Part shown: positions 35,314 through 53,493 of the stretch, in pieces
Layout: each line of letters starts with the position of its first letter
How positions within the stretch are numbered: the stretch's first letter is position 1
Source: Sulfurovum sp.
GTDB taxonomy: Bacteria; Campylobacterota; Campylobacteria; Campylobacterales; Sulfurovaceae
Direction: 5' to 3'
DNA: 64,000 nt
Assembly: GCA_027082955.1 (NCBI GenBank)
Contig: JALWTA010000020.1
Coordinates: 1 to 64,000, forward strand
Position numbers and translations under genes: made by a program
Notes under the pieces: model-generated
Told to the model about the DNA's origin: nothing
Seen by the model: the letters and a program-made list of their open reading frames with translations, nothing else
Database searches by the model: none

Positions 35314-36000
35314 TTATGCGGTAAACATATATCCGCGTGAGGGGATGGTTTTGATAAATTTGTGTTTGAGTTTCTGGCGGAGTCTTTTGACAAGGGTACG
35401 GATGGTGTTTGCACTGGTTTCTTTGTCTGGCCATACATGCGCTTCGATGGTATAGAGATCAAGCAATATATTGCGGTTATGGATAAACAGTACCAGCAGC
35501 GCATGCTCTTTTCTGGTCAGAGGTATGGGCTCACTGCAACAGTAAAGCGTATCGTGCTGCGGTGTGTAGGCAAATTCGTCATCAAGTATGATATGATCTG
35601 TTTCAGGGGTGTTGGCGTGATGCTGTGAGCGTTTGTGCTGTGCTATTTTGAGAAAGACTTTGAGCTCGTCACGGTTGAAGGGTTTGGAGAGATAGGCGAC
35701 GGGATCGGTCTCAATTGCCCGGTCGACATTGTAGTTGTCCAGATGGGCGGTCAGGTAGATAATCTGAACGTCTGGGTGTGCCTGTTGAATGTGGGCGGCG
35801 GCATCGACCCCGTCAATATTGCCCTTTATGCAGATGTCCATCAAAATCAGATCGACAGAGATTTGTGCGAGGGTTTTGAATGCACAGTTGGCATCGGCAC
35901 ACATACCGGCTACATGGTAGCCGAGTGATTTGAGATAGATATCGAGTTCCATCGCGACAATGCTTTCATCTTCTACAATCAGTATATTCAGTTCTTTCAC
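35314..36000 (-). CDS. OmpR-class response regulator, partner of the 7TMR-DISM kinase
   Basis: A 228-residue regulator. The receiver domain has E10-D11-E12, acceptor D55 (LILMDIC), Thr in YLTAH and Lys in LSKPFN. After a linker (about 125-140) comes a winged helix (LTRKEHALLVLFIHN, then TIRTLVKRLRQKL, then IPSRGYMFTA). Its start overlaps the kinase stop by 4 bases, so the two form one transcript. Because the kinase promoter region is shared with the divergent exported-protein cluster, that cluster is the natural first guess for a target. Confidence 0.92.
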   Translation of the reverse strand: MKELNILIVEDESIVAMELDIYLKSLGYHVAGMCADANCAFKTLAQISVDLILMDICIKGNIDGVDAAAHIQQAHPDVQIIYLTAHLDNYNVDRAIETDPVAYLSKPFNRDELKVFLKIAQHKRSQHHANTPETDHIILDDEFAYTPQHDTLYCCSEPIPLTRKEHALLVLFIHNRNILLDLYTIEAHVWPDKETSANTIRTLVKRLRQKLKHKFIKTIPSRGYMFTA

Positions 36001-37856
36001 AGTGTAAACCTTATGGTGTATTTTGTGTGTGGGTTTGTGCCGATATTGATCTCTCCTCCAAGCTGGTTACGCGCAAGAGTCTCAACCAACTGCAGTCCAA
36101 GGGATTTGCCTGTTTTGGCACTCTCCAGTCCTCTGCCGTTATCTTCAACGGTAAGAATATAGCTTGTATTTTCCTGCAGCAGAGTGACCGTTATCGTTCC
36201 TTCGTGACTAAATGCGTATTTGTAGGCATTGGTGATCAGTTCATTGATGATCAGCCCGACATAGACAGACTGACGCAGGGGCATGACGGCATTGGTGTGC
36301 AGGTTGATATGCACTGTTTTGTCTTTTTGCAGTGATCTTTTCAGATCATGCAGCAGCGCATCGAGATACTCCTGCATGTCGATCTCCTCAAGACGCTCTT
36401 TGACAAGGAGCATATTGTAGGTCTGTGAAATGGCATTGATGCGGTTTTCAAGATCCAAAAGAGCTTCAGCCGCACTCTGTGCATCTTTTACCGTATCATT
36501 TTGCATTCTGATAATGGAGAGGATGATCTGGAGGTTGTTTTTGACACGGTGGTGTACCTCCTGAAGCAGCAGCTCTTTTGCCTTGAGTGTTTCATTGAGC
36601 TCGGCGGTCTTTGCCTCTACATCTTTCTCTACCAGTTCTGTACGCCGCCTTGACTCATCGAGTATCTGTGCATCGGCAAACGCCTTTTCCTGTTGAAGGA
36701 TACGATATCGGTCTGCAAATGCGAGGGAGAGCACAAGTGCCTCAAATGCCGTACCAAACATCAGAATGTTCTTAACATGCAGCATAAATGTGGTAATACC
36801 AACAGCATCGAGGATGATGAAAAGATAGGAGAGAAAGACGATCGCAAATCCGACGATGAAGAGACGTGCCTGCTTCTCTCCTCTACGGTAGGAGATGATG
36901 CCTGCTGCAAGGTTGAAGGTGATAAAGAGTGCACCGGTAAAGATCACGACATAGAGATTGTAGAAAAGCGGGCTGCTTAAGACGAGAATTTCAAGAAGCG
37001 ATACAGCGATAAAGAGCACATATCCGTACCACAGCCTCCCAAAACGGACTACTTTCAGAAAGTGCATGGCAAAAAGAGCGGAGGTGATCACCAGCAGGTT
37101 TATCTTGAAAACAGGGATTTTCATATCGATCGCAACAAATGCAGGCGGCAGATAGATATGTGTCAGTCCCAGATAGGTCATCTGCTGCCATACAAGCGCA
37201 AAGAGGTACATACTGTAGTAGAGATAACTCCTGTCTCCGATATAGAAAAAAATGATAAGGCTGTAGGTTGCCAGTGCAAGGATGAACCCTGCAAGCAGGA
37301 TGTTCGTAAACTGCTGCCGCCTGTCTTCTGCAAGAAAGTGTTTGCTCTCTTTAAGCATCAGTGTAAATTCGACAGGTGTGTAGGCAGAACGGACTTCAAG
37401 ATAGAATCTGCTGACTGTATGCGGCGGCAGGGTCAGCATATAGTAAGGCACAAGTGTTTCTCTGTTTTTATGCAGCTTTCCTACCCCGTTGTGGAGGGCA
37501 CCCTTTTGATCTTTTTCGGTATAGAGTGCAATGTACTCAAGCAGCGGAGAAGTGAGCACAAGTGCACGCTCTACAGGTGTGTCTGTTGGGTTTTCGAGTG
37601 CAAAGCGTATCCAGATGGTATGTGTCTGCATACCGGTATTGATATAGGTGCGCCCATAGGGTTTGAAGCAACTTCCTTGTTTGATCTCTGAAAAGGCAAG
37701 CTGGTTGCGGTCAAAGCAGACTTCGCTCTTCTTTAGCAGTGGGAGTGCGTGCTGTGCCGGTGTAACAGCGACTGGGTTCACGTCGGCATTGGCTGTTTGC
37801 AGCCATAAAAAGAGTGACAACAGCAAAGGCAGCATGGTATGGAAATATCTTGGCAT
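35997..37856 (-). CDS. 7TMR-DISM sensor histidine kinase (HisKA_2 type)
   Basis: A kinase of about 619 residues. A signal peptide (about 1-24) is followed by a periplasmic 7TMR-DISM extracellular domain (about 30-175), which often binds carbohydrate or similar ligands. Seven membrane helices (about 180-375) and a coiled linker come next. The HisKA_2 box LLQEVHHRVKNNLQII has its phospho-acceptor His at about 427, and the ATPase domain has N box INELITNAYKYA, G1 VEDNGRGLE and G2 KSLGLQLV. The start is put at ATG 37856; an upstream ATG at 37871 and a downstream one exist. The signal is unknown. It is divergent from the exported cluster, 107 bases away. Confidence 0.9.
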   Translation of the reverse strand: MPRYFHTMLPLLLSLFLWLQTANADVNPVAVTPAQHALPLLKKSEVCFDRNQLAFSEIKQGSCFKPYGRTYINTGMQTHTIWIRFALENPTDTPVERALVLTSPLLEYIALYTEKDQKGALHNGVGKLHKNRETLVPYYMLTLPPHTVSRFYLEVRSAYTPVEFTLMLKESKHFLAEDRRQQFTNILLAGFILALATYSLIIFFYIGDRSYLYYSMYLFALVWQQMTYLGLTHIYLPPAFVAIDMKIPVFKINLLVITSALFAMHFLKVVRFGRLWYGYVLFIAVSLLEILVLSSPLFYNLYVVIFTGALFITFNLAAGIISYRRGEKQARLFIVGFAIVFLSYLFIILDAVGITTFMLHVKNILMFGTAFEALVLSLAFADRYRILQQEKAFADAQILDESRRRTELVEKDVEAKTAELNETLKAKELLLQEVHHRVKNNLQIILSIIRMQNDTVKDAQSAAEALLDLENRINAISQTYNMLLVKERLEEIDMQEYLDALLHDLKRSLQKDKTVHINLHTNAVMPLRQSVYVGLIINELITNAYKYAFSHEGTITVTLLQENTSYILTVEDNGRGLESAKTGKSLGLQLVETLARNQLGGEINIGTNPHTKYTIRFTL

Positions 37857-37890
37857 AAACAATTGTATCAAAATATCACGTAAATATTAT

Positions 37891-37930
37891 TTTGTCACAT
37901 CTTTGTCACAACGCTTTGATAACATATGGT
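37891..37930 (+). promoter_or_regulatory. 11-bp-spaced direct repeat and promoter of the exported-protein cluster
   Basis: TTTGTCACA occurs at 37891-37899 and 37902-37910, exactly 11 bases apart. The second copy can serve as a -35 element (TTGTCA, 37903-37908) with a weak -10 TATGGT (37925-37930). A weak promoter overlapped by a one-turn direct repeat is what an OmpR-class activator would use. The binder is inferred to be the regulator encoded at 35314-36000. Confidence 0.55.
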
Positions 37931-37963: not shown

Positions 37964-39067
37964 ATGAAAAAGAAGGTGCTCATAGCAGCAGTAGTGGCAG
38001 GATTCGGATATGTTCCGTCTGTATCGGCAGGAGATATGCATCTTTTCGATATCAAAAGCGGGAAGGTGACCTATGCTGTCATCGGTTCAGCCAACATGAT
38101 GGGAGTACAGATGCAGACCAAAGGGAAAAAACGGTTGGTCTTTGACAAGTATGGTGCACGGAACCTTACCGAAACGGTTACAGTGGAGAAGCGCAGCGGA
38201 ATGGGCGGCAATGAAACCACCAAAACCCATACGTTGACACTGATGGACGGAGAGAGACTGTATGTGGCAGATTTTAACCATAAGACCATTACGAAAATGC
38301 CAAATGTCGGGGCAGCGATGCTTGGCGGCGGCAATATGAAGCAAAAAGGTCTTACGATGATGAAGCAGATGGGCGGCAGGAAAACCGGTACGGACAAGGT
38401 GCTTGGCTATACCTGCGATGTCTGGGAACTGATGGGGACGAAGCAGTGTATCTACAAGGGGGTGACACTGAAAGTCGAGTCTAATGTGATGGGGGTAGTT
38501 AACAAAGAAGTTGCGACCGATGTACAGTTTGGCATTTCACTCTCTGACAGTGACTTCAAGCTGCCTGATTTTCCGGTACAGGAGGGTACAGGAGTGACGG
38601 GAAGCCCTATGGGAAGCCAAGGAGGCGGAATGGCGGTACCGCCACCCAGCGCACAGGATATGTCCAAAATGGAAGAAGCACTCAAAGCAATGGGTGCAGC
38701 GATGCAAAAGAGCAGTGGCAATGGACAGATGCCTGCAATGTCCCAAGAGGATCGGCAAAAAATGGGTGAGGCGATGGGTGCGGCTCTTGCAGGTGCCTTG
38801 ATGCCGCAGATGAAACAACAGTTGATTGAGCAGGAGCAGGCAATGAAGTTTGCCAAAACGTGTCTAACCGATGCCGATACACTTGCTCAAGCGCAAAAAT
38901 GTGCCCAAAGAGTGGATGAGATGATGGGGGAATCCGGTGAGCCTCTTGACAAATGGGATGCACAGACAAAACAACAGGCCCTGCAAGAGATAGACAGGGC
39001 GCTTGATAGTGTGGCGTGTGCCAAGCGTGCCAAAACAGCTCAGGCGATGCAGCAGTGTATGCAGTAA
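37964..39067 (+). CDS. Exported protein, DUF4412-like, Met/Gln-rich C-terminus
   Basis: A 367-residue protein with a Sec signal peptide (about 1-22, ending SVSAG). Residues 25-200 form a beta-rich domain with a recurring pattern similar to DUF4412 outer-membrane/periplasmic proteins (LMDGERLYVADFNHKT, then VLGYTCDVWELMGTKQC). Residues 215-300 are rich in Met, Gly, Ala and Gln. The last 70 residues contain four Cys in a helical region, probably disulfide-bonded in the periplasm. The ATG at 37964 has GGAGGAG before it. It is the first gene of the exported cluster. Function unknown. Confidence 0.75.
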   Translation: MKKKVLIAAVVAGFGYVPSVSAGDMHLFDIKSGKVTYAVIGSANMMGVQMQTKGKKRLVFDKYGARNLTETVTVEKRSGMGGNETTKTHTLTLMDGERLYVADFNHKTITKMPNVGAAMLGGGNMKQKGLTMMKQMGGRKTGTDKVLGYTCDVWELMGTKQCIYKGVTLKVESNVMGVVNKEVATDVQFGISLSDSDFKLPDFPVQEGTGVTGSPMGSQGGGMAVPPPSAQDMSKMEEALKAMGAAMQKSSGNGQMPAMSQEDRQKMGEAMGAALAGALMPQMKQQLIEQEQAMKFAKTCLTDADTLAQAQKCAQRVDEMMGESGEPLDKWDAQTKQQALQEIDRALDSVACAKRAKTAQAMQQCMQ

Positions 39068-39083
39068 ATCAAAAGGAGTAGAA

Positions 39084-39458
39084 ATGTTTTTGAACAAAAG
39101 TGGAGTATGGGCAATAGCTGTAGTCGTACTGGGTACATCAACCGTTTACGCAACGCAAAAGGTCGACCTTGAGAACTATCGTGTAAAGATCGTCAAAAAT
39201 GCTTCAAAAAAGACGATTGAAAGAGAGACCAAGTCGATAAAGTTCGAATTTGGAAACGATATTGAAAAGGTCATTACAGATGTGGATTTTGACTGTAAAA
39301 GTCTCGGTTTGGCAAAAACCGATACGTTTCAAAACCCTCCTATGGGGTATGTGGAGTATACCTACAAAAAAGAGATAGAGAAAGATATAGAAGCACTATG
39401 TGAGGAGAGGGTCTATGACACCGGTTCCGAGTCGATTGCCTTTTTGATCAAGTGGTAA
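39084..39458 (+). CDS. Small exported protein of unknown function
   Basis: A 124-residue protein with a signal peptide (about 1-22). The mature part is charged, with two Cys about 40 residues apart (FDCKSLG and EALCEER). The start ATG 39084 has AAAGGAG before it; a longer frame from 39003 overlaps the previous gene and is rejected. The mature start KVDLENYRVKIV resembles EVNLKYYKDITI of the protein encoded at 41231, and both have a DxDC/SxxC pattern, so the two may be distant paralogues. Confidence 0.65.
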   Translation: MFLNKSGVWAIAVVVLGTSTVYATQKVDLENYRVKIVKNASKKTIERETKSIKFEFGNDIEKVITDVDFDCKSLGLAKTDTFQNPPMGYVEYTYKKEIEKDIEALCEERVYDTGSESIAFLIKW

Positions 39459-39471
39459 CAGACAAAGTGTT

Positions 39472-40533
39472 ATGATGAAAAATCCGATTGTGACAGTACT
39501 ATTGTTGTCTGCTTGGCTTGGTGCGTCAGAGAATATCTATCCGGGGCTTTTGGGTACGGTTGTCAATCTTGCCAAAAACGATACACTCAATGTCAGAGAA
39601 GCACCGGATTATCATGCTAAAAAAACGGCTGCACTGCCTCTTGATGCCTATGTAGGTGTAGACCACTGCAAAAAAAGAGGCAAATCAACATGGTGCAACA
39701 TCTTTCACGTTGCACAGAGAGATTATGAGGGGTTTGGCTCAGATGTCAAGCGAGGATGGGTCAATGCACGCTATTTAGCGTTTTCCGACCGTGGCTATGT
39801 GATCATAGACAATAAACCAAACTGTGATTATGTACTACGATGCAAAGTGCAGCAGTGTGAAGTGGTTGATGACTATACAACAGATGAGAAAAGTGGCGAT
39901 ATCACTTCGTTAAAAACACGCTGGGTCAACAGAAAAAGGCTTAGGGCATCGAACTATTTTGATGCAATGCCTGATGACCCTGATGCATCAGGGTACTGTA
40001 CTATACACGCAAAGATCAATATCTTTTTACAAACCCAAAAAGAGAAAAAAACAGATAGTGCTTTAGAAAAAAAAGTGCGTGATGTGGTGTCAGCACTCAA
40101 CAGACTCAAAGATGGCAGCACCAATGCCTTTGCAGCGTATGTGCACCCGCTTAAAGGGGTTACCATGACATGGTACACACACTTTGGTTACAACAGACAC
40201 TTTAGCCGTACAGAGATAGAAAAGGCGCAAAAAAATCAAAACAACGCACTCTACTGGGGAACGAGGGAGAGTAACGGTGAAGCTGTCCGCATGAGTCTTT
40301 TGGACTATATGCGTATGTTGAGCCGACCTCTTTTGGATATGACCAAGATAGAGAAACTGCAAGATCTCAAAGGTTTTCAGTGTGACAAAACACAAACATG
40401 CAAAGGGTACGAGGTACGTTGGATGGTTGACCCAAAAGTCTCTAATGACTGGCTGGGATTGGTGATCATTTTTGAGAAGTATCGGGGCAAATGGTATGTG
40501 GTGGGTCTGCTCAGAGACCGCTGGACAGTATAG
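39472..40533 (+). CDS. Exported protein with N-terminal SH3-like domain
   Basis: A 353-residue protein with a signal peptide (about 1-19). Residues 25-105 look like a bacterial SH3 domain (DTLNVREAPDYHAKKTAALP, then RGWVNARYLAF), which in other proteins binds peptidoglycan. A Cys-rich stretch (CDYVLRCKVQQCEVV) follows. The rest (about 180-353) is an unassigned domain ending in a conserved-looking WLGLVIIFEKYRGKWYVVGL beta structure. It lies 13 bases after the previous gene in the same direction. Confidence 0.7.
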   Translation: MMKNPIVTVLLLSAWLGASENIYPGLLGTVVNLAKNDTLNVREAPDYHAKKTAALPLDAYVGVDHCKKRGKSTWCNIFHVAQRDYEGFGSDVKRGWVNARYLAFSDRGYVIIDNKPNCDYVLRCKVQQCEVVDDYTTDEKSGDITSLKTRWVNRKRLRASNYFDAMPDDPDASGYCTIHAKINIFLQTQKEKKTDSALEKKVRDVVSALNRLKDGSTNAFAAYVHPLKGVTMTWYTHFGYNRHFSRTEIEKAQKNQNNALYWGTRESNGEAVRMSLLDYMRMLSRPLLDMTKIEKLQDLKGFQCDKTQTCKGYEVRWMVDPKVSNDWLGLVIIFEKYRGKWYVVGLLRDRWTV

Positions 40534-40544
40534 AGGAGGAGAGA

Positions 40545-41228
40545 GTGAGACGTATAGCATTCATATTGTTGGTGGGAACGGGGGTGCTGTTGGCAACAGC
40601 ATTCCATCCTTACGGTGTGAAATCGGGAAAGATCACTTTTGAAAAACGCCGTTACGGTATCCATACGACACTGCATATCGACGCAAACACCAATGTGCAG
40701 GGAAGCCGAAGCAATCCTTACTACGTGGAGGAAGAGATTGTCTACTACTGGGACAATTACGGTGATATAGCTTTTGAGGAGGCCTACCGTGTTGCAGACT
40801 TTGGCGGTAAACCGCTGCCTAAAAAGGTCAAGAAGTATGAAAAGCTTTGGAAAGGGGCACATCGCTACTACTACAATGTAAAAAAACATCGTCTCTCGGA
40901 TGATCCATACTACATCAGAAAAGCGTGTCTTGAGGCAGAAAAGTTCTATCAGCTTGCAGGCTGGTTTGGTGTCATCTACCCACAGGCTGTCATGTTGAAC
41001 AGTGAAACGGTTGCAACAAAAATGACCAGACACTACCGTGAAAGTGCCTATAGCGATTACTATCTCTACAACGGTATCGTGTTGCGTGAAGTGAACTACG
41101 CTACAAAACAGAAAAACGGAAAAGAGGTGCGTTTTGAACCTGAAACGGAGAGAATCGCAATCAAAGTGGAGGAGAATGTTTCGGTCGATCCGGAACGTTT
41201 TCACCCCAAATGGCTAAAGGAGAAATAG
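40545..41228 (+). CDS. Exported protein of unknown function, Tyr-rich
   Basis: A 227-residue protein starting at GTG 40545 with AGGAGGAG before it. A signal peptide (about 1-18) is followed by a charged, Tyr-rich mature part. One pattern, PYGVKSGKITFEKRRYGIH, resembles the DIKSGKVTYAV opening of the first protein in the cluster, so a related beta domain is possible. One Cys is present (RKACLEA). It ends 2 bases before the next gene, whose ribosome site lies in its last codons. Confidence 0.62.
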   Translation: MRRIAFILLVGTGVLLATAFHPYGVKSGKITFEKRRYGIHTTLHIDANTNVQGSRSNPYYVEEEIVYYWDNYGDIAFEEAYRVADFGGKPLPKKVKKYEKLWKGAHRYYYNVKKHRLSDDPYYIRKACLEAEKFYQLAGWFGVIYPQAVMLNSETVATKMTRHYRESAYSDYYLYNGIVLREVNYATKQKNGKEVRFEPETERIAIKVEENVSVDPERFHPKWLKEK

Positions 41229-41230
41229 AT

Positions 41231-41674
41231 ATGAAAAAAATCATGACAGCGGTATGTATGACGGGTATGATATGGGGGTCGATATCCAATGCTTCAGAAG
41301 AGGTAAATCTGAAGTACTACAAGGATATCACGATAGACCACTACCACAATGACAAAGATTTTACGTTCATGCAGCAGTTTATGAAACAGCATCCCCAAAA
41401 GGATGTAAGGCTTATTGAAAATCCTGCTTTTAGCTGTGAAGATGCCGGGTTTACATCGAAAGAGATGTATCAGAACCTTGTACTCTACGGCAAAAAAAAC
41501 AAAGAGGGAAAAATCGTACAGAGTGAAAAGGAAGGAGACTTTAAAGCCGAGAGTACAAAAAAGTATTTTAAAAAAACGGCTCATGGCGAAGCAAGCTGTG
41601 TGGAGATAGTGCGCTATAAAGGGAGTGAGCTTTACGGTACGAAGCATTATGCCATTCTAAGAGGCAAGCGGTGA
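41231..41674 (+). CDS. Small exported protein of unknown function
   Basis: A 147-residue protein with a signal peptide (about 1-20). The mature region has two Cys (AFSCEDAG and ASCVEIV) that could form a disulfide. It may be a distant paralogue of the protein at 39084. The stop overlaps the GTG of the next gene by 4 bases (GTGA), so translation is coupled. Confidence 0.62.
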   Translation: MKKIMTAVCMTGMIWGSISNASEEVNLKYYKDITIDHYHNDKDFTFMQQFMKQHPQKDVRLIENPAFSCEDAGFTSKEMYQNLVLYGKKNKEGKIVQSEKEGDFKAESTKKYFKKTAHGEASCVEIVRYKGSELYGTKHYAILRGKR

Positions 41675-42354
41675 AACGAGTGGTAAAACAGGTTCTGTTC
41701 GTATGGATGGCATCTGCTTCCATACTTCTGTCCGGCGGACTTTTAAAGGGTGAGCATCAGTTCAGAGCACTTAAGAGCTACAGGATCCATGATTTTCATT
41801 TTGCCAAACCGATAGTCTACATGGATATCGTAACATTCGGTGCAAAAGGTGACATTGATGGAAACAGGTTTCAACTTCCCAAGAACTATATGTTTCAAAC
41901 ACTGCTGAGAGTGGGAAAACTCCCTTTTTCGCAATGGAGAAAAGAGAGAGATTTTGACTATTTGGCACATGCTATCTTGAAAAAAGAGTACTTTTGGAAA
42001 AGAGTCATACCGCTTTTATGGGAGTACTCTTTCATTACACTGCGTTTTTGGGAAGGCAATGACCATAGACTCAAAGCGATAACCCAACAGCAGGATATTC
42101 TCGACATTTTTGGTGAAATAGACACACCTGCTGAGCTGCATGTATGGTTGAAGGCTGTCTATTCTTACAGCGAACTCTATTTTCTGGTTGGCTGGAAAAA
42201 AGTCAACGGTCTTTACCGCATTCACTTTAAAGGGCTGAACAACTTCTGCATTTATGATGAACACTTTGACTATTTTGACAAACATGGAAAAAAGGTTAAA
42301 AGCACAACACTCAAACATTACCGTAAAAAGGGATGTGTTGAGGCGTTACCTTGA
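41671..42354 (+). CDS. Exported protein of unknown function
   Basis: A 227-residue protein from GTG 41671. Residues 1-24 are a signal peptide or anchor (VLFVWMASASILLSGG). The mature part is rich in aromatic residues (many Phe, Tyr, Trp), which suggests a beta-barrel-associated or surface protein, but no family is recognised. Two Cys lie near the C-terminus. Confidence 0.6.
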   Translation: MKRVVKQVLFVWMASASILLSGGLLKGEHQFRALKSYRIHDFHFAKPIVYMDIVTFGAKGDIDGNRFQLPKNYMFQTLLRVGKLPFSQWRKERDFDYLAHAILKKEYFWKRVIPLLWEYSFITLRFWEGNDHRLKAITQQQDILDIFGEIDTPAELHVWLKAVYSYSELYFLVGWKKVNGLYRIHFKGLNNFCIYDEHFDYFDKHGKKVKSTTLKHYRKKGCVEALP

Positions 42355-42368
42355 ATGAGGAACATCAA

Positions 42369-43259
42369 ATGAAAAAGATATGGATATATCTTGTCTTGAC
42401 GATCACATTACTTTACAGCAAAACGTATCCGGTGTTGCCGCTAAGTATCGATGCTGTTTTTGGCAACGGCGTAAACCGTTGGGAGGAAGAGCAGTTTGTG
42501 AACGGACTTGGACATACACTTCGGATGCGGGGTCACATCGAACTGATGTATGATGCGCCTTTTGTTCTGACTGTCAGGATAACAGACTACAAAAGACCCG
42601 ATCCACACCGCGGTACACAACACCGCTACCGGCTGAAAACAAGGATCAAGGCCTATTTTTGGGTTAAAGACCGTTGGGATTATGATGTGTATCATGGCAG
42701 TGTGGACTATTCGCTTTCGCTCGATGCCCGCACATCAGGAACAGTTGATGCCTATGACGATGCCAGAAGACGGCTTTTTCAGGGCTTGGGTGAACGTGTT
42801 GCCGAACGTCTGAACGAAAACTTTACATTTATGGTCGATTTTGAACGTCAGCAAGACCGTAACAGCAGAGTGGAGAGGGGCATGTCCGGTCATGCTGTCA
42901 TGATGCGGGGTGAGATGCTCGACTTTGAAAATGCTTCTGTAAGCAGCAGAAGAAGTACAACGGCAGATATTGGCTGGTATGGGGATGCATACAAGACTGA
43001 TATGCAGCGGATGGTTTTTCTCAACGGTACACGCTACGGCATTGCAAAAGGCGTTGGCTACAGAATGGTAGACCGTCGGTATGCCATGCATATGGGGCTG
43101 TACGGCTATGATCTTTTTGGAAGAGAAATACACAGTGGGACCGTTTTTGTGCTCAAAACGGCAGAGGGGCACTATGTCAAAATGCAAGTTGACGGTTTTG
43201 TACGTAAAAACGGTACAGAAAATGCAGGATTGCGTTTGAAGTGGCAATTTCTGGAGTAG
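42369..43259 (+). CDS. Exported protein of unknown function
   Basis: A 296-residue protein from ATG 42369, preceded by GAGGAAC. It has a signal peptide (about 1-18). The first half (residues 20-160) looks like an alternating beta-strand domain with a helical LFQGLGERVAERLNENF, reminiscent of small periplasmic LptE/LpoB-like folds. The second half has the YGIAKGVGYRMVDRRYAMHMGLYGYDLFG motif region (about 222-250). No family assigned. The giant VWA gene follows 9 bases later. Confidence 0.62.
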   Translation: MKKIWIYLVLTITLLYSKTYPVLPLSIDAVFGNGVNRWEEEQFVNGLGHTLRMRGHIELMYDAPFVLTVRITDYKRPDPHRGTQHRYRLKTRIKAYFWVKDRWDYDVYHGSVDYSLSLDARTSGTVDAYDDARRRLFQGLGERVAERLNENFTFMVDFERQQDRNSRVERGMSGHAVMMRGEMLDFENASVSSRRSTTADIGWYGDAYKTDMQRMVFLNGTRYGIAKGVGYRMVDRRYAMHMGLYGYDLFGREIHSGTVFVLKTAEGHYVKMQVDGFVRKNGTENAGLRLKWQFLE

Positions 43260-43268
43260 GGGGATAGC

Positions 43269-46200
43269 ATGAGAATGATAGGAAAATGGTTTGTTCTGTG
43301 GGCAGTGTTGTTGCAGTTGGTACACGGGTATGGAGAGAACGATACCTACCCGGCACCACCTGTTGATTTGGTAAAGGTAGACAAGATATATCATTTTTTC
43401 AGTGGATTTGATATTAGTGATACAAGCTTCTCCTACCATGACAGTAACGGTACCAAACATACCGTTGAGCTTAACGGAGCCTATTGGCAGTTCAGGGGTG
43501 AGGTTGAGAAGAAAGAGCAACCCAAGAAGATAGAGACACTCTTATCGCTGCTTCAGTCCAAAGGTGCGACAGTGCTGGAGTATAACAAAGAAAAAAGTGA
43601 TATCTCCTTGGTCTGGAACCGCCCCAAAAAAAATCAGAAGATATACATAGGCATTACCTATGGATGGTCGAGTCATTTTAGAGTCTATATCCATAAAGAG
43701 CAGTATCTTCCCCCTAATACTCCTATTGATGTTGTAGTGGATGAATCCAATGATACCATCCCCTCCGAAGTGATGTTGCGCGCACCGTTTGACGGAGAGC
43801 ACTACTACTATCTGAAGATCGATGTACTCTCCAAAAACGGGGTAGACATCAAAGCAACCTCCTATCCGGAAGGTGATGGTGTCTCCATTCAAAATGAGCA
43901 GAAGATGCGCTGTGAATCCAAATACTACCGACACTACACTATGCTTTCTCTTGACCCGTATGGAAGTATGCATGACTTTAAAATCACGAGCTTGGGAGAG
44001 AAAAAGGAAAAAGTGAGGCTGACACTTGTCAAGACAGACTTTCCTGTTGTACCCCTTGGGAAGCTTTCTGACAAAGCAGGGGTGTTTCAGCTCAAGAACG
44101 CTCTTGGCTCTCTGCCCCAGTTGAAGAGTCTCGGATATATATCGGGCAGCTACAATACTCCCCAGGGGGATTACCTGCCAAACGGAGATGCCCTCTACTG
44201 GCTGAACAACGGATACTACAATTTTGTCAAAGAGGGTTTGCGAAGCAACCTCGTACCTGTACTTGCCGAACATATTACCACAGTAACATGGCCGTCATAC
44301 TTTGTCACAATGACAAATAAAACAGTATCTCAAAAAGAGAAAGCGACAACGCAGATGGCGATTTTTGGAACAAGAAGTGAAGACAACCAAACCGTCACTG
44401 TCGATCTTTCTCTTTCCCACATGCCAAAAGAAATCACGCTGCAAAAAGAGGATTTTGAAGTCTATGAGGATGGAAACATACCGGGAAAAGTGCTTCATGT
44501 AGAACATCTGCATGAACCTATGCAGATTGTACTGCTGCTTGACTCTTCGGGCTCGATGAAGCACAGCATGCGTGCCGCACTGCAAAGTGTACGCAGGTTT
44601 ATTGAGAAGCTGCCCGAAGATGCAAAGATCACGCTGGTAGATTTCGATACAAAGGTCAAAGTACTCAAAACAGGCAGTAAGTCCGAGGTGCTGCAAAAAC
44701 TCTCCCGTATCCGTGCCAACGGTGCAACGGCACTCTACGATGCCATCATCAAAGGTACAGAACTGCTTGCGGGGAAATCGCGTGCAAGCATCATTCTCTT
44801 TACAGACGGCAAGGATGCCAACTACAACGATACACGCCGCGGCAGCAAGGCAACCTTTGATCAGATGATTGCCAAGGTTCAGGATGCGGATCTCTCCATC
44901 TACCCTATCGCCTTTGGAAAACATGCCGATACAACGACACTGAGTGCGATTGCCCGTATGACAAAAACCGCCTACTACCATGGAGAGAATATGGCACAGA
45001 TAGACCGCATATTTGAAGATATACGCCAAACGCTCTCCTCTGCCTACCGTGTCACGTACCAAAGAGGGAGAACACCGCTGCAGGGATCACAGCCGGTAGT
45101 GAACTATATGGTTGATGTGAGCGGTTCTATGGATCTTCGCTCCTCTTTTTACGGTGATTGTGAAGGGTGTGCCAACCGTTTTGAACCACTCAAATCGATG
45201 CTGGCACAGAGTATTGAGGAACTGCCAAAAGGTACTTTTGTGCAGTTGAGCACTTTTGCATCAGATGTCAAAACGGTACAGATACTCACACAAGACAAAG
45301 CCAAACTTCTTGCCGGAATTGGCGCAATCGATGTGGGTGGCGGTACCGAGATCATCAAAGCACTCAGAAAAGGGCTGGCACTGTGTAAAGTACAGCCTTC
45401 AAACAGACGCTACTTTATCTTCACTACCGATGCCGCCGCAGATGCATTCAAGTTTGACAAAGAGCAGCAAAAAGAGCTTAAAGCACTGCTGATGGCATTT
45501 AAGCACAGCGGTATCCAGACATTTTGGATTGGGATGTGGGAAGATCCCAAAACCGTTGCCCACATGCAAAAGATGGCAAAACTCAGTGGCGGTGAATCGT
45601 TTGTGAGCTCAGACATAGAGAAGATCAAGGAGAAGATTCTCGCAGTAACCCGAAAAGTCGGCAAAAGGACGAACACAGCCCAGAGTGTCTCCTCTGTCTT
45701 GGTTAAACTGAAAAAAAGAGATGCAAAAACGGGGTTGACGGTAGCAGCAGTCGGAGAGAGTACGCTCAGTCTGCCGATACTGTATGAGCAGACCCATTCC
45801 AAGAGGGTTACAGAGGTTGCCCATACTATCAGTCCGTTCAAAACGGACAGCAGCAGCTACAATACCCAAACAGCCAGAAGTATCTATGGTGACGATATGC
45901 CTGTAAAAGATGTACGCATCAGCAAGATCATACCGCTTAGAGATGATCACAACCGTACAATCTCGGCAAAGAACAGGGCGGTGAAGATCAGCGTAGGCAA
46001 AGCCTATCTGCTAAGCCGTCTTAAAGGGTTGGAGGCTGGACACGGCCATACCTATCTGGTACTCGATATGAATCTGAGCAATATCCTCCCCGTACAGCAG
46101 GTAGCGGTCGGCAAAGACGGCAGCAGTCACCCCTCAAGCTGGATTGGACAGAGCAATGAGAACTATACTTACAAAGAGGCTGTACCTTCCTACGAAATCC

Positions 46201-49200
46201 CCAACTTTGCAAACCATCTTTTCATCCGTGTAAACGGAAGCTATGAGATGCCTATAAGCCCGATGACATGGGCACTGAACGATCCGCTTTTGCCAATGGA
46301 TGCAACCTCGCTTACGATTGACGGTAACGGTACGAAGTCCGGGATGCTGCTCTTTCGCATTCCAGATGAGAGTCTAAAGTCACTTTCGCTTCATTTTTAC
46401 GATACTGCCTACGGACATATCGATCTTCCGATCATTGGAACGATGAAGCAGCTGTCTGCCCGTGTAGAGGCACTGCCAAAAGAGGCACCGCAAAAACTTG
46501 GTGATGCTTTCAGTATCAGTGTGCTCGGCAGACATTTTGACGATACTCTCGCAGGTATCAAAGCGCCTAAAGGGACACGCTATGAGACACTGATTCTTGC
46601 TATTGACAGCAAGGTCAATGCCCTGCTGGCACTCGACCCGCAAAAACGCTTCAGACTCAACATAGACTCTCCATACGGCGGCTGGATGCTCAAACCCGCA
46701 CCAATCACACGCGTCATACCGCTTGGACTGTATGATGCACTCTCTTTGGCTCCGGGATCGCATAACCGTTTTGCTCTGGTCTTTCAGGTGCCCACATTGC
46801 TTCAAGATGCTCCACAAAGTCTCATCGTTTCACTCAAAGGCAAAGACAAAGAGATAGCTGTCATCAAAAAGCCTACTTCCCAAAAGATACCAGATCCGCT
46901 TGCCAAGGGCACGGCCAAAGGGATTGACCTGGTACTCAACGGGGTGTACCGCCTCGATGGTCTTGACGGCTACAGCGGAGACTACCTGCTTGCCGATGTC
47001 ACACTGGATGAAAAAGAGGATGGAAGTACCGCAAGGTTGCGTGATATGCTGCAGCTCTTAAAAAAAGTGCCATCAAAAGAGCCTCAAGAAACCTCTAAGG
47101 AGGTATCACACAGAGGGCTTGGCAACTTCAGCAGCAAAGAGGGAGGCAGCAAGAGCTGGGAGGTACGCTCTCAGGACAGCAAAACAGTTACACGGGTACT
47201 GGGGTGTGACGGTATGGCACCGGACGGATATAAAAAACGCTGTTTGGTGCTTTTTGATCTGCACGGTCTGGATGAGAATAAACCGCTCTACCTTACCTCT
47301 TCCATCTTTAAAGACTTTACCTACACGGTTGAACCCCCAAAACTTAAACCTCTAAATGACAAAGCCGCTTCTTTGTTGTCAGAGAGGCAGGAGCTTGAGA
47401 GAAGCAGCTGGGAAGAGAGTGTGCAAAAGATACTTGAAAAAGTACGTCAAAAACGCATTGCTACAGGGAAGGGTGTGGGCGGTTCACACAAGCAGGTCAT
47501 ATCGCTTGACAGTAGCAAAGATATGCTTCAGCGCATCGCACCGTTGAGTGCCTCCTTCGCCGGGGCACAGAAGCTGCAACAGATCAAAAGTTTCAGTGAG
47601 GCGCTTGAGATGTTGAAACATATCACCTGGGTACCTGCGGCTACAGATGGTGCACTCTATTCGCCCGAAGCGATGGTGACACAGGGGTGGGGGACGGAGT
47701 ATGCCATGACAAACTACCTCTACCGCATATTGAAAATGCGTAACCTAAAAATAGAAAAGGGGTACTACTATCTGAGCAAAGAGGGCAAAAAGGCACTTGC
47801 CTCCAAAGCCGGCAGTATTCCTCTAAAATATGACAAAGTACCCTATCTTGCATGGGAAGAGGAGGGGGAGAGACATAGCATCGTCATACCGTTTTTGCAG
47901 GATGAAGCCATGCTTAGAGGGATGTTCAAAGACAAAAGCAGCAGTAGCCCTCTTGGGAGTGGAAATGCCCAGATAGAAATGAGGCTCTACTTTACAAACA
48001 AACAAACAACCCAAGCAGTACAAATGGGCGGTATGGCTGCGGCACTTGGGGGTGCAGAGGGATCGAAAGAGAAATATGAAACACTCTTTTCCAAGTCGTT
48101 CAGTCTGGACGGACTCTCCAATATGCCTGTCGATATCTTCTTTACCAAAGGTAAAAACAGAGATGGAAAGTCCATTTACACTGCGCGATGGTATGGTCTG
48201 GACGGATTGGAGGAGGAAGAGACCTATGTGGGGGGCGACATTGTTCCCAAACGTCTTGAGATCAAGTGTTACAACGGTATGGAGTATGCCGATACCTACA
48301 CTTTCCGTTTTGAAAAGGGGCAAAAACTTGAAGATCTCTTCTTTACGTTTGCGTTTGCCGTGCCTGACATCTCTGAAGATGCCATTGCCGTGATGGATAA
48401 GGAGAGAGAAAAACGGTTTAAGCATGTAGCGAAGGTGGCACCGCTGTCGCAGTTGCAGTGGGTAAACAGAAGTACACTATATCGATTTACAGCACTTCAA
48501 AGTACTTATGAAAAACGTCTTCAGAATTTACTCAAGGTGAATGTGAAACGGCATAAGAGCCCTCGAATACTGATGGCTGTTATTGAAAAACGATCCAATA
48601 AAAAAATGATACGCCACCTTGATCTTAGAAGTACTTTTGCTGATGTATATGGGGAGCAAAACGCTACAAAAGCATTTCATATTATGGATGGTATTTTCAG
48701 TTCACAGGCTGAAGCATCTGCTCTGTTAAAGGGAAAAGGTATTTTTGATATTTGGAAGAGCCACAAAGATCAAAATTTGACTCTCATGTTCCCTGAACAA
48801 AAAAAGCAAATCATCCTTTTGCTAAAAAATAAAAATGTGCCGTCATTGATAATAAAACGCTATGAAAACAGTGATAAAGTATGGCTCTATCCACTCAATG
48901 ACAAGAAAGAGATAGGTTGGCTTGAAATTGATCCTAAGACGTATCAAACAAGAACTGTATATGAAAACGGTATGTATGCAGCAATGGCAGAAAAATCCGA
49001 AGTTGATATGGCGATTGATTCTGTTTCAAACTATTTTATTGGACTCTTCTCCGGTGTAGGTATTTCTGAGTGGAGTGTAGTAATGCATATGCATATAGAA
49101 GATTATTGTGAATTATTAAAAGCATCAGAAGATACGGCAAATAACATTGCGTGTGGTGTAGCAGTTGGAGGAGGGATTGTTGGAGCCTCTGTTTTAGGGA

Positions 49201-49406
49201 TTAAATCGACTTTTCTTGGATGTACAGGATATGCAAAAAGATCTAAAATGATAGGTATTTACGGTAGTTTAAGAGGTAGCAAAAGCACAACTGCCATTGG
49301 TAAGACTTCAGAAGCCATTGCCGGTTTTGCCAACGGTTTTGGTGATGGAGTGGCTTTATATTTTCAAATAGCAAAAGAGCATGCAGAGTGTAAAAAAGGT
49401 CATTGA
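43269..49406 (+). CDS. Giant secreted double-VWA-domain protein
   Basis: A 2045-residue protein with a signal peptide (about 1-21). The region to about 390 is unassigned. The first VWA domain (about 415-600) has MIDAS D425-x-S427-x-S429, the downstream Thr of GATALYD and Asp of FTDGKD, preceded by a DFEVYEDG linker. The second VWA (about 608-800) has MIDAS D616-x-S618-x-S620, GGTEI and TTDAAAD. Both can bind divalent metal and are typical adhesion or complex-assembly modules. About 800-1740 is long, mostly beta-rich, unassigned. From about 1745 to the end the codon usage becomes much more A+T-rich, and the tail has Gly-rich hydrophobic stretches (CGVAVGGGIVGASVLG, SEAIAGFANGFGDG). GGGGGATAGC precedes the ATG. 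It is the last and largest gene of the exported cluster. Confidence 0.85.
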   Translation: MRMIGKWFVLWAVLLQLVHGYGENDTYPAPPVDLVKVDKIYHFFSGFDISDTSFSYHDSNGTKHTVELNGAYWQFRGEVEKKEQPKKIETLLSLLQSKGATVLEYNKEKSDISLVWNRPKKNQKIYIGITYGWSSHFRVYIHKEQYLPPNTPIDVVVDESNDTIPSEVMLRAPFDGEHYYYLKIDVLSKNGVDIKATSYPEGDGVSIQNEQKMRCESKYYRHYTMLSLDPYGSMHDFKITSLGEKKEKVRLTLVKTDFPVVPLGKLSDKAGVFQLKNALGSLPQLKSLGYISGSYNTPQGDYLPNGDALYWLNNGYYNFVKEGLRSNLVPVLAEHITTVTWPSYFVTMTNKTVSQKEKATTQMAIFGTRSEDNQTVTVDLSLSHMPKEITLQKEDFEVYEDGNIPGKVLHVEHLHEPMQIVLLLDSSGSMKHSMRAALQSVRRFIEKLPEDAKITLVDFDTKVKVLKTGSKSEVLQKLSRIRANGATALYDAIIKGTELLAGKSRASIILFTDGKDANYNDTRRGSKATFDQMIAKVQDADLSIYPIAFGKHADTTTLSAIARMTKTAYYHGENMAQIDRIFEDIRQTLSSAYRVTYQRGRTPLQGSQPVVNYMVDVSGSMDLRSSFYGDCEGCANRFEPLKSMLAQSIEELPKGTFVQLSTFASDVKTVQILTQDKAKLLAGIGAIDVGGGTEIIKALRKGLALCKVQPSNRRYFIFTTDAAADAFKFDKEQQKELKALLMAFKHSGIQTFWIGMWEDPKTVAHMQKMAKLSGGESFVSSDIEKIKEKILAVTRKVGKRTNTAQSVSSVLVKLKKRDAKTGLTVAAVGESTLSLPILYEQTHSKRVTEVAHTISPFKTDSSSYNTQTARSIYGDDMPVKDVRISKIIPLRDDHNRTISAKNRAVKISVGKAYLLSRLKGLEAGHGHTYLVLDMNLSNILPVQQVAVGKDGSSHPSSWIGQSNENYTYKEAVPSYEIPNFANHLFIRVNGSYEMPISPMTWALNDPLLPMDATSLTIDGNGTKSGMLLFRIPDESLKSLSLHFYDTAYGHIDLPIIGTMKQLSARVEALPKEAPQKLGDAFSISVLGRHFDDTLAGIKAPKGTRYETLILAIDSKVNALLALDPQKRFRLNIDSPYGGWMLKPAPITRVIPLGLYDALSLAPGSHNRFALVFQVPTLLQDAPQSLIVSLKGKDKEIAVIKKPTSQKIPDPLAKGTAKGIDLVLNGVYRLDGLDGYSGDYLLADVTLDEKEDGSTARLRDMLQLLKKVPSKEPQETSKEVSHRGLGNFSSKEGGSKSWEVRSQDSKTVTRVLGCDGMAPDGYKKRCLVLFDLHGLDENKPLYLTSSIFKDFTYTVEPPKLKPLNDKAASLLSERQELERSSWEESVQKILEKVRQKRIATGKGVGGSHKQVISLDSSKDMLQRIAPLSASFAGAQKLQQIKSFSEALEMLKHITWVPAATDGALYSPEAMVTQGWGTEYAMTNYLYRILKMRNLKIEKGYYYLSKEGKKALASKAGSIPLKYDKVPYLAWEEEGERHSIVIPFLQDEAMLRGMFKDKSSSSPLGSGNAQIEMRLYFTNKQTTQAVQMGGMAAALGGAEGSKEKYETLFSKSFSLDGLSNMPVDIFFTKGKNRDGKSIYTARWYGLDGLEEEETYVGGDIVPKRLEIKCYNGMEYADTYTFRFEKGQKLEDLFFTFAFAVPDISEDAIAVMDKEREKRFKHVAKVAPLSQLQWVNRSTLYRFTALQSTYEKRLQNLLKVNVKRHKSPRILMAVIEKRSNKKMIRHLDLRSTFADVYGEQNATKAFHIMDGIFSSQAEASALLKGKGIFDIWKSHKDQNLTLMFPEQKKQIILLLKNKNVPSLIIKRYENSDKVWLYPLNDKKEIGWLEIDPKTYQTRTVYENGMYAAMAEKSEVDMAIDSVSNYFIGLFSGVGISEWSVVMHMHIEDYCELLKASEDTANNIACGVAVGGGIVGASVLGIKSTFLGCTGYAKRSKMIGIYGSLRGSKSTTAIGKTSEAIAGFANGFGDGVALYFQIAKEHAECKKGH

Positions 49407-49437: not shown

Positions 49438-50538
49438 CTATATCTCCCCCGCCATAAAATGCTCAAATATCTGAGTGACCAGCGCAATGCGCTCCTCAAA
49501 ACTCTTTTTGCTCGCTCTCTCATGCACGGTATGGTCTCCGTCTCCGTAAGGACCCCAGCCGTCAAGCGTGGGTACGCCTTGTGAGGCAACAATGTTGGCA
49601 TCGCTCACTCCGCCGCGCTTTTCGGTAGGCAGGGTGATGTTGCAAAGTGCCTCTATCTTTTTGACAAAGGCGGCCTGCTGGGGGGTGGGTTGCATCACAT
49701 CACGCTGGATGCCGCCGCTGAGTGTTGATGTTGTTCCTTCTACATAGGCGGTATTGACGATGGTGTCGATGGCGTTGAGTACCCTGTCGCGCTCCTCTGT
49801 GGTGGTGTAGCGCAGTTCAAAGGTGAGTTTTGCTTTGGGTGAGATGGTATTGGCACCGATACCCCCTTCGATCTTGCCGACATTGACGGTGGTCTCTTTT
49901 TCAAGATCGGTCAGTGTGACCAGTTTTTGCAGTTTCATAGCCGCTTCGAGGTTGGCATCTGCTCCCTTGTCGTAGTGGTTGCCCGCATGCGCGGCGATGC
50001 CTTCAATGTCGATGAAGAAGGTACCGACCCCTTTGCGTCCTATGACCACCTCGTCATGTACCCCGGCAGCTTCAAAGACCATGCAGTAGTCGTACGCTTT
50101 GGCAAGTTTGGCAGTGAGATACTTGCTGTCGTCACTTCCGGTCTCTTCGTCACTGACGAGTAGGAAGTCGATGTTGTGGATGGCACCATGCTTTTTGTAG
50201 ATATTTCTCAGTGCCTCAAGGGCGACATAGTTTCCCCCTTTCATGTCGCATACCCCCGGTCCGTAGATCCATGCATCATCTTCTCTGAACTGTTCAAACG
50301 TACCGGGAGGGAAAACGGTATCAAGGTGTCCCAAAAGCAGCAGTTTTTTTCCCTCTTTTTGAGGTGAGGTGAGATGGAGATGATCACCAATCTCTTCTCT
50401 GGGATAACGGGTAAGCTGAAAGCCGATCTCCTCCATCCAGTAGGCGAAGATCTCACCGTTTCGGTCGACACCCTCTTTGTTTTTGGTCCATGAGTTGATC
50501 TCGATGATCTCTTTGAGTGCTTGATAGGTATCGGACAT
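49438..50538 (-). CDS. M20-family metallopeptidase
   Basis: A 366-residue cytoplasmic di-zinc hydrolase of the carboxypeptidase G2/ArgE/DapE/PepV group. Visible are LLGHLDTV (His and Asp ligands), VCDMKGG (bridging Asp), SDEETGS (catalytic Glu and Glu ligand) and a C-terminal DHTVHE His ligand; a dimerisation lid domain (about 170-290) separates them. The segment RGGVSDAN fits the CPG2-like branch, which removes C-terminal Glu from peptides or folate-like compounds. The start is ATG 50538 (AAAGGA before it). It converges with the VWA gene and is divergent from the ATP-grasp genes across the inverted-repeat element. Confidence 0.88.
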   Translation of the reverse strand: MSDTYQALKEIIEINSWTKNKEGVDRNGEIFAYWMEEIGFQLTRYPREEIGDHLHLTSPQKEGKKLLLLGHLDTVFPPGTFEQFREDDAWIYGPGVCDMKGGNYVALEALRNIYKKHGAIHNIDFLLVSDEETGSDDSKYLTAKLAKAYDYCMVFEAAGVHDEVVIGRKGVGTFFIDIEGIAAHAGNHYDKGADANLEAAMKLQKLVTLTDLEKETTVNVGKIEGGIGANTISPKAKLTFELRYTTTEERDRVLNAIDTIVNTAYVEGTTSTLSGGIQRDVMQPTPQQAAFVKKIEALCNITLPTEKRGGVSDANIVASQGVPTLDGWGPYGDGDHTVHERASKKSFEERIALVTQIFEHFMAGEI

Positions 50539-50596
50539 TTGATATCCTTTTGTTATTCTTGGCAGATATTTTAGTAAAATATTGTAGAATTGGAGG

Positions 50597-50870
50597 TTAA
50601 GGGAACCTCTAATAATAGGTGATACCCACAACATCTCTAGCTTTTCTCTAGGCTAGGCACGCTTTTGAAGTCCTAGTCGTAGCTAAGTCGAAAAAGCGTA
50701 ACAACGCATAGAGGAAAGCTAGTGATGCCCGAAGGGTGGGCTTTGCAAACGTAATCTTGCACAAGACACTTCCTTCATCTTAGCTACTGCTAGGACTCGG
50801 AAGTCTCTTGCACAATCTTACATTTGCAAAACCCATTGTGGATATTACCTATTGTTAGAGATTCCCTTAA
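50597..50870. mobile_element. 274-bp inverted-repeat element (MITE-like) with complementary hairpin loops
   Basis: TTAA-flanked ends. The first 35 bases (50597-50631, beginning TTAAGGGAA) match the reverse complement of the last 35 (50836-50870) at 31 positions. Inside are three hairpins. A: 50637-50666 with 50691-50722. A small one: GCCC 50727-50730 with GGGC 50738-50741. B: 50742-50773 with 50799-50830. The loop of A (50669-50687) is complementary to the loop of B (50779-50797) at 17 of 19 positions, in two perfect 8-base blocks. No coding potential. It is either a non-autonomous transposable element or a structured RNA; both are possible together. It fills the gap between the M20 and ATP-grasp genes. 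Confidence 0.75.
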
Positions 50871-50890
50871 TCTTTTAAAAGGAAGGTAGA

Positions 50891-51793
50891 ATGGGAAGAA
50901 AGATCGGAATGTGGATGTACCAAAACGGCGGTGGTGACAAGATCGAAGCCAAAATGGTTAAAAAATTGAAAGAAAGAGGGATAGAGACGGTCACAGGACT
51001 AAACCTTCGGCATGCCATAGCCAAAAAAGGGCATATCTACCATGGAAAGCGGAAAATGGACAAGCTTGATCTCTTTTTCTCCTATAATGCAGGGGAGCAG
51101 ACGCAGTATCAGGTCTTTTTGTATCAGGCACTGGGGCGCATTATCCCTACCGTCAACTCTTACGAAGCCTTTGCGCTGACAGAGGACAAGTTTCAGACTG
51201 CCTATATGCTTCAGCAGCATGGTATCGCGACACCGGAGTTTCAGCTCTGTCACCGGGACGATACAGAGCACCTCAAGCGCATTATGAAGAAGTGGAAGAA
51301 GATGGTTTACAAACCTACAGATGGCTGGGGCGGGGTAGGTTTGACCAAGATAGAGAGCGAAGAGTCGCTCAACATGCTGCTGCCGTTTCTCAATCAGGCG
51401 GACTTGCGCTTTTTCTATGTGGAGAAGTTCGTCAAGTATGATAACACAGACTACCGTGTCGATATTGTCGATGGGCAGTTTGTGGGCTGCTACGGCAGAA
51501 AGGCAAGCAAACGTGACTGGCGCACCAACGTAACCAGCGGCGGTTCGGTCTTCCTCAGGGAGCCCAATGACGAGGTGATCGAGCTGGCGATCAAGGCAGC
51601 AAAGGTGTGCGGTACGGATATTGCCGGGGTGGACATCATTTACGATCTGGAGCGTGAGGAGTATGTGGTGCTTGAGGTGAATGGTATTCCTGCCTTTGCG
51701 ACACCTGAACAGGAGAAGATGGGACTGGACTTCAATGACCGAAAAATAGACCTGATCGTTGATCTGATTGACCGCACAACAAAAAACAAATAG
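50891..51793 (+). CDS. RimK-like ATP-grasp ligase
   Basis: A 300-residue ATP-grasp enzyme of the RimK/glutathione-synthetase type. These enzymes activate a carboxylate as acyl phosphate and join it to an amine. The N-terminal Rossmann-like domain (1-100) is followed by the ATP-grasp core: Lys in MVYKPTDGWGGVGLTK, FFYVEKFV, the nucleotide/metal region GTDIAGVDIIYD, and VLEVNGIPAF with the Glu/Asn metal ligands. RimK adds glutamate to ribosomal protein S6; other members make peptides or tags. It is followed by a second ATP-grasp gene and an M14 carboxypeptidase, which suggests a common peptide-type substrate. GGAAGG precedes the ATG. Confidence 0.87.
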   Translation: MGRKIGMWMYQNGGGDKIEAKMVKKLKERGIETVTGLNLRHAIAKKGHIYHGKRKMDKLDLFFSYNAGEQTQYQVFLYQALGRIIPTVNSYEAFALTEDKFQTAYMLQQHGIATPEFQLCHRDDTEHLKRIMKKWKKMVYKPTDGWGGVGLTKIESEESLNMLLPFLNQADLRFFYVEKFVKYDNTDYRVDIVDGQFVGCYGRKASKRDWRTNVTSGGSVFLREPNDEVIELAIKAAKVCGTDIAGVDIIYDLEREEYVVLEVNGIPAFATPEQEKMGLDFNDRKIDLIVDLIDRTTKNK

Positions 51794-51843
51794 GAACCGA
51801 AGGCTTTAGCCTTGTTATATGCGGGACTAAAGTCTCCGATTCC
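51793..51843 (+). repeat. Double-hairpin repeat, copy 1
   Basis: A 51-base unit: GGAACCGA, then hairpin AGGCT-TT-AGCCT, a variable 8-base spacer, GCGGGACTAAAGTCTCC (a second hairpin), ending GATTCC. It overlaps the stop codon of the first ATP-grasp gene. The second copy lies at 51926. Confidence 0.75.
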
Positions 51844-51925
51844 AAAATGTTGCAAAAGCATAAACAAAGATCAAACTGATCGTTGATATGATTGGCTGAA
51901 AAATAAAAAATAGTGCAAAGAGATA

Positions 51926-51975
51926 GGAACCGATGGTTTTAGCCTCGCTTGTGCGGGACTGAAGTCTCCGATTCC
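51926..51975 (+). repeat. Double-hairpin repeat, copy 2
   Basis: The same plan as copy 1, with GGAACCGA, GGTTTTAGCC, GCGGGACTGAAGTCTCC and GATTCC. It lies in the same orientation 83 bases later and just before the second ATP-grasp gene. The pair occupies most of the 220-base gap. Confidence 0.75.
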
Positions 51976-52013
51976 GGTATCTTTGAAAAAATTTAAATAA
52001 CAAGGAGTATTAT

Positions 52014-53444: not shown

Positions 53445-53493
53445 AGAGATTTGGATATAATCCCGCTCCAATTTGCCAACAAAGGTTGCACGC

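Follow-up and report, generated by a model that had tools for sequence, protein, structure and literature searches.

An operon for eight putatively exported proteins, ending in a double-VWA protein, as a putative cell-envelope or surface-attachment system in Sulfurovum

Eight open reading frames, g1 to g8, lie consecutively on the plus strand at positions 37964-49406 of the window, the 64,000-nucleotide stretch of Sulfurovum sp. DNA analysed here, which lies on contig 20 of a 2.1 Mb assembly. They are spaced by -4 to +16 bp, the gaps in order from g1 to g8 being 16, 13, 11, 2, -4, 14 and 9 bp, and g4 and g6 have GTG start codons. As read from the sequence, the N-terminus of all eight products is signal-like, with positive charge followed by a hydrophobic stretch. 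The sequence-only reading had described these as consecutive, tightly spaced or overlapping genes for exported proteins, and that description holds. Comparison with the nearest relative, genome G115, gave dN/dS values of 0.09-0.24 for g1-g7 and residues 1-1477 of g8, a sign of purifying selection. Because they are conserved in G115 at these ratios, g1-g8 are real, constrained genes, and chance ORFs are ruled out. Vents and vent animals are commonly colonised by sulfur-oxidising Sulfurovaceae, and little is known of their attachment and envelope building.

The operon's first gene, g1 (37964-39067), encodes a predicted exported protein of 367 aa from a Sulfurovaceae family. Three family labels had been proposed from the sequence, and one of them was confirmed by the profile searches. 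The DUF4412 label of g1 was not supported, as g1 had no DUF4412 match in Pfam at E up to 1 and three members of its family had none at E up to 0.5. The SH3-like label of g3 (39472-40533, 353 aa) refers to an N-terminal domain with weak likeness to Pfam SH3_3, below the cut-off (19.5 bits against 27, E 0.0012). The two VWA domains of g8 are the confirmed label. No Pfam or NCBIfam match was obtained with g4 (40545-41228, 227 aa), and those of g2 (39084-39458, 124 aa), g5 (41231-41674, 147 aa), g6 (41671-42354, 227 aa) and g7 (42369-43259, 296 aa) were all sub-threshold. Matches of g2 to glycosyl hydrolases or phosphatases fell below the cut-off, as did those of g7 to LptE or HmuY, and g7 has no accepted family. 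g2 and g5 are paralogues, with 97.4% between their profiles in hhalign; g1 and g4, at 63%, are possibly distant paralogues. PDB sequence searches returned nothing for g3, g7 and the g8 core, an insignificant ribosomal match for g1, and one VWA match for the N-terminal part of g8.

The last gene, g8 (43269-49406), encodes a predicted exported protein of 2045 aa. Both of its VWA domains lie above the Pfam cut-off (VWA_2 92.7 bits vs 27), and the MIDAS motif (DxSxS...T...D) noted in the sequence-only reading is complete in each (D425/T487/D512 and D616/T693/D719). The best NCBIfam match of the VWA1 region is TIGR03436 acidobact_VWFA, at 63.7 bits against a cut-off of 81.25, and covers only ~210 of the 2045 residues. 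The protein starts with an N-terminal domain, followed by VWA1 (~419-590), VWA2 (~610-800), three DUF4352-like sandwiches (~881-1364), a cysteine-less NAT/transglutaminase-like domain (~1430-1563), a mixed alpha/beta part and a hydrophobic helical C-terminus. The model of residues 881-2045 has a mean pLDDT of 72.6 and a pTM of 0.47, that of residues 1420-2045 a pLDDT of 77.4 and a pTM of 0.75, and the fold comparison bore mainly on residues up to ~1563. In the predicted structure, the three tandem sandwiches matched ycdA, 4les, YxkC, MPT63 and 3qfg with Z scores of 8.5-11.7; by sequence, two of 14 g8 relatives matched DUF4352 (best E 6e-06). The model agrees with an immunoglobulin-like sandwich fold of the DUF4352/MPT63 kind at ~881-1364. 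The extracytoplasmic proteins ycdA, YxkC and MPT63 share this fold with the three core domains, but they are much smaller and have no VWA domains. For residues ~1430-1563, arylamine N-acetyltransferases were mostly the top structural matches (Z 5.0-5.6 over ~120 residues; best Foldseek E 0.03), which is suggestive only of a NAT/transglutaminase-like (papain-like) fold. This region differs from arylamine N-acetyltransferases and transglutaminases at the catalytic cysteine position, located by our alignment to the motif, where none of the 14 aligned g8-family members has a cysteine; a TQGW-x motif is nearly invariant in the same alignment. Since the cysteine is absent in 14 members, the domain, if of that fold, is probably non-catalytic. 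A viral fold search with the C-terminal part of g8 gave nothing significant.

Upstream of g1, two genes of a two-component system are found on the minus strand. The response regulator (35314-36000) has Response_reg and OmpR/PhoB-type Trans_reg_C domains (Pfam, 77.6 and 57.0 bits). The sensor histidine kinase (35997-37871), divergent from g1, has 7TMR-DISMED2, 7TM, HisKA_2 and HATPase_c domains (Pfam). Between the kinase and g1, in their shared promoter region, positions 37891-37910 of the plus strand carry an operator-like tandem direct repeat, TTTGTCACA-TC-TTTGTCACA. This sequence, TTTGTCACATCTTTGTCACA, consists of two identical 9-mers with an 11-bp period, a geometry which fits an OmpR/PhoB-type regulator and makes it a candidate binding site. 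The repeat also resembles a Pho box, and the site might therefore serve a different regulator. A whole-genome search showed that the repeat at 37891-37910 is the sole site within one mismatch of TTTGNCACANNTTTGNCACA. The same pattern had 74 matches in 175 Sulfurovaceae genomes, vs 15 for the reversed control. The exact 9-mer pair occurred elsewhere only in the G115 cluster and twice in the cluster of G066, where one copy precedes the kinase. Variant repeats precede lead or later cluster genes in G112 (g8), G123 and G033 (small VWA gene, see below), G130 (g1) and G086; in G082 another separates the small VWA gene from the kinase, and one lies before a kinase homologue in G088. Fifteen of the 73 listed repeat sites have a cluster gene or kinase no more than 3 kb away; some of the gene positions in this count, a small number, were entered manually. 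The clusters from which the pattern was partly derived are not independent tests of it.

The two-component genes recur together with relatives of the cluster. A kinase 88% identical is next to the same cluster in G115. Orthologues with 44-54% identity adjoin VWA clusters in G022, G066, G172 and G082, and in G074, G112 and G124 the orthologue is divergent from a g1 paralogue. Homologues of the response regulator are beside the clusters of G115, G172 and G170. The divergent arrangement, the genome-unique repeat and the orthologous kinases agree with the earlier suggestion of a self-contained, regulated unit. Together they strongly support regulation of the cluster, and this two-component system looks dedicated to g1-g8, with binding of the regulator to the repeat as the putative link. 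In G124 (C57, 171930-173093), pieces of a kinase orthologue, interrupted by stops and spread over several frames, are located immediately upstream of a small VWA gene, and an intact orthologue is elsewhere on the same contig. Unrelated two-component pairs are near the clusters at L073, L086 and L044 (genomes G086, G117 and G122), which suggests that the regulator may be swapped too.

All eight genes together with both two-component genes were found in one relative, G115. Apart from the window, G115 is also the only genome that retains the exact order of the eight genes, while subsets of the families lie within 10 kb of one another, reshuffled, in many Sulfurovaceae. Recurrence of the locus in the family, for which the sequence-only reading had proposed a search, is thus real for the gene set and its subsets, and limited to these two genomes for the exact order. 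In G158 the order is g3-g4-g6-g5-g2, in G124 small VWA-x-x-g5-x-g7-g6-x-g3, and in G162 small VWA-x-g4-g3-g6; the cluster of G112 seems to be divided between contigs 37 and 64. Among 175 family genomes, g1-type genes are carried by 110 (a weaker paralogue being common), g3 by 53 and g6 by 37. The rarer families are g4 (7 genomes), g2 (7) and g7 (16, with only five strong matches). g4 occurs at 8 places in its 7 genomes, all beside other cluster genes, and four of the five strong g7 matches adjoin other cluster genes on one contig.

With the window and G115 set aside, we counted how often each family has another cluster family within 10 kb. The counts were 18/25 for g1, 19/37 for small VWA proteins, 14/26 for g3, 6/6 for g4, 6/6 for g2, 9/18 for g6, 2/3 for g7 and 3/5 for g8, from coordinates copied by hand from the search tables and with score thresholds set by us. 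The expected chance co-localisation within 10 kb is 1.5-5%, and the observed values are far above it, in a binomial test that treats related genomes as independent. In G066 (L070, L071), ~30 kb of cluster-related genes include two tandem copies of g3/g4/g5/g2. Literature on Sulfurovum with VWA proteins or adhesins, and on DUF4412, yielded nothing about this cluster.

The VWA protein beside these clusters is not always g8. In 15 genomes a strong g1 match has, no more than 10 kb away, an exported VWA protein, here called small VWA, whose length is mostly ~500-1000 aa. Other clusters have a PPC/F5-8C/double-VWA protein with a separate g8 C-terminal protein (four genomes) or the fused g8. A small VWA protein and a g8-type protein were found in the same cluster in none of the genomes. 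The numbers are small, but they suggest that different proteins occupy a single VWA slot.

The C-terminal core of g8 (residues ~900-2045) was found in 7 of the 175 Sulfurovaceae genomes (G000, G115, G112, G074, G122, G170 and G172). It is fused to two VWA domains in the window and in G112. G115 has the same architecture, with residues 1-1477 on one contig and a further C-terminal piece on another. In G170, G074 and G122 the core is a separate protein directly behind a protein of 1650-1770 aa, and in G172 this pair is split over two contig ends. Pfam assigns an F5/8C domain and VWA domains to the partner, in which PPC-like repeats and a second VWA with a MIDAS were read by eye. A few genes further on from the split g8-core gene of G122, L044 (84-2648) encodes one protein that is papain-like and one that is caspase-like, both judged by sequence only. 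In G081, where the g8 core was not found in the genome, a divergent PPC/F5-8C/VWA relative immediately follows a g6 relative and a tandem repeat site (L126). A FastTree phylogeny of the core grouped the Sulfurovaceae forms together with support of 1.0, the split forms with 0.999, and the fused forms of the window and G112 with 0.944. The outgroups are fused where complete. From this tree, the fused form is likely older and the split form derived.

In a sample of the class the g8 core was found in 3 of 397 genomes, all three from the genus of the window. Distant relatives, mostly ~2000 aa and standalone, occur in Thermodesulfatator, Halanaerobiales, Desulfobacteraceae and several Clostridia; those at L050, L056 and L057 are incomplete at contig ends. 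The N-terminus of the clostridial relatives has a lipoprotein-like or membrane-anchor segment. The g8 family is rare and has no Pfam or NCBIfam entry of its own, and a plasmid search gave generic VWA matches only. As the g8 family is found without g1-g7 in other phyla, g8 is independent of those seven there. This would suit a co-regulated neighbourhood rather than one machine, with g8 as an independent binding protein and g1-g7 as separate accessory or structural proteins under one promoter. The recurrence of g1-g7 subsets without g8, and the retention of all eight in two genomes only, point in the same direction. But the same families cluster with one or other VWA protein far above chance, and a single unique operator-like site would govern the unit. 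We regard this explanation as unlikely.

The size, patchy occurrence and multi-domain build of g8, its hydrophobic helical C-terminus and its variable N-terminal partners would also be expected of an effector, delivered or displayed in contact-dependent antagonism or host interaction. No toxin or immunity family was accepted, however, and the match of g8 to Ntox8 was insignificant (13.3 bits vs 25). The C-terminal part of g8 is conserved, not polymorphic, and the absence of the cysteine from the NAT/transglutaminase-like domain in all 14 members argues against an effector as well. PADLOC defence models matched neither g1-g8 nor the PPC/VWA partner, and a defence or toxin system was rejected. 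An effector function is very improbable.

The main rival to an adhesive role is periplasmic envelope maintenance or assembly. The VWA proteins would keep envelope proteins or peptidoglycan in place under stress, as scaffolds or chaperones that depend on metal, with nothing exposed at the surface. VWA domains serve in chaperones and periplasmic assembly too, which counts against adhesion, and the adhesion or surface-assembly role is inferred only from the MIDAS-bearing VWA domains. The signal-like N-termini throughout are compatible with maintenance. No outer-membrane exporter or sorting signal was identified within the cluster, so a surface location is putative. The SH3-like domain of g3 would suit peptidoglycan binding, given a match below the cut-off, and two-component induction through a Pho-box-like site would suit stress. 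The cluster of G066 adjoins genes that resemble, by sequence, a MoxR/BatA/BatB-type set, which also fits. On the other hand, a set as patchy as this, with the g8 core in so few genomes of family and class, is unlike core maintenance. The large multi-domain binding architecture, with F5/8C in the sister forms, points outward. We consider envelope maintenance somewhat unlikely.

The cluster is probably an undescribed cell-envelope or surface-attachment system, with this function being putative. The best explanation, which we hold tentatively and at a little under even confidence, is that g1-g8 form one dedicated, inducible, envelope-anchored VWA system for binding or adhesion. The sensor kinase, whose 7TMR-DISMED2 domain is of the carbohydrate type, would phosphorylate the OmpR-type regulator. 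The regulator would then bind the repeat at 37891-37910 and activate the operon g1-g8 along with its own genes. The Sec route would take the eight proteins out of the cytoplasm. g8 would be the working part, its two metal-dependent VWA domains gripping a protein or polymer ligand. Its sandwiches and the catalytically dead NAT/transglutaminase-like domain may serve as arms or extra binding surfaces, and its conserved helical C-terminus may hold it to the membrane or to a partner. g1-g7, of which g2/g5 are clearly and g1/g4 perhaps duplicated, may help to anchor, fold or present g8, possibly in a complex with it.

Such a g8 would work in the manner of VWA adhesins such as CglB or PilY1. CglB is a VWA surface adhesin of Myxococcus gliding (PMC12282271). 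It is likewise an exported MIDAS VWA protein, and the small VWA proteins match its model weakly (best E 3.6e-05). Against the cut-off of 200 bits of NF033757, however, a small VWA member reached 18 bits and g8 had no match. The cluster lacks gliding machinery, and g8 differs in having two VWAs and a long C-terminal part that is unrelated to CglB. Pilus adhesins of the PilY1 type, which carry a VWA, are regulated by a phosphorelay in Myxococcus (PMC9109919), and the likeness lies in a VWA binding protein that has its expression controlled through phosphotransfer. Unlike PilY1, g8 has no PilY1/PilC C-terminal domain (Pfam, E up to 1) and the cluster has no pilin genes. A resemblance to these adhesins in working is plausible, with g8 a member of neither family by the profile searches made. 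MoxR-vWA ternary conflict systems are vWA gene clusters based on a MoxR ATPase (PMC7159879); by Pfam, no ATPase is present among the eight proteins, which differ also by their signal-like N-termini.

A wider form of the adhesion proposal is an undescribed envelope apparatus in Sulfurovaceae, modular and integrin-like. Under the control of a single operator and a dedicated two-component system, exported accessory proteins would offer surfaces or partners a MIDAS VWA protein that can be exchanged, whether a small VWA, a PPC/F5-8C double VWA plus g8 core, or the giant fused g8, and the g8 family reaches distant phyla. We put this forward as a possibility, with some doubt. If the main reading of g1-g8 is right, a complete surface or envelope system is under the control of one kinase and a single operator site. 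A solved function of g8 would annotate a large orphan protein class spanning several phyla.

The gene downstream of g8 is convergent and encodes an M20 peptidase (49438-50634, minus strand). The region behind the cluster (49438-56073) also encodes two RimK-like ATP-grasp proteins and an M14 carboxypeptidase, and together with the M20 gene these may be a set for modifying peptides. In G115, too, g8 has the M20 gene and the first ATP-grasp gene as neighbours.
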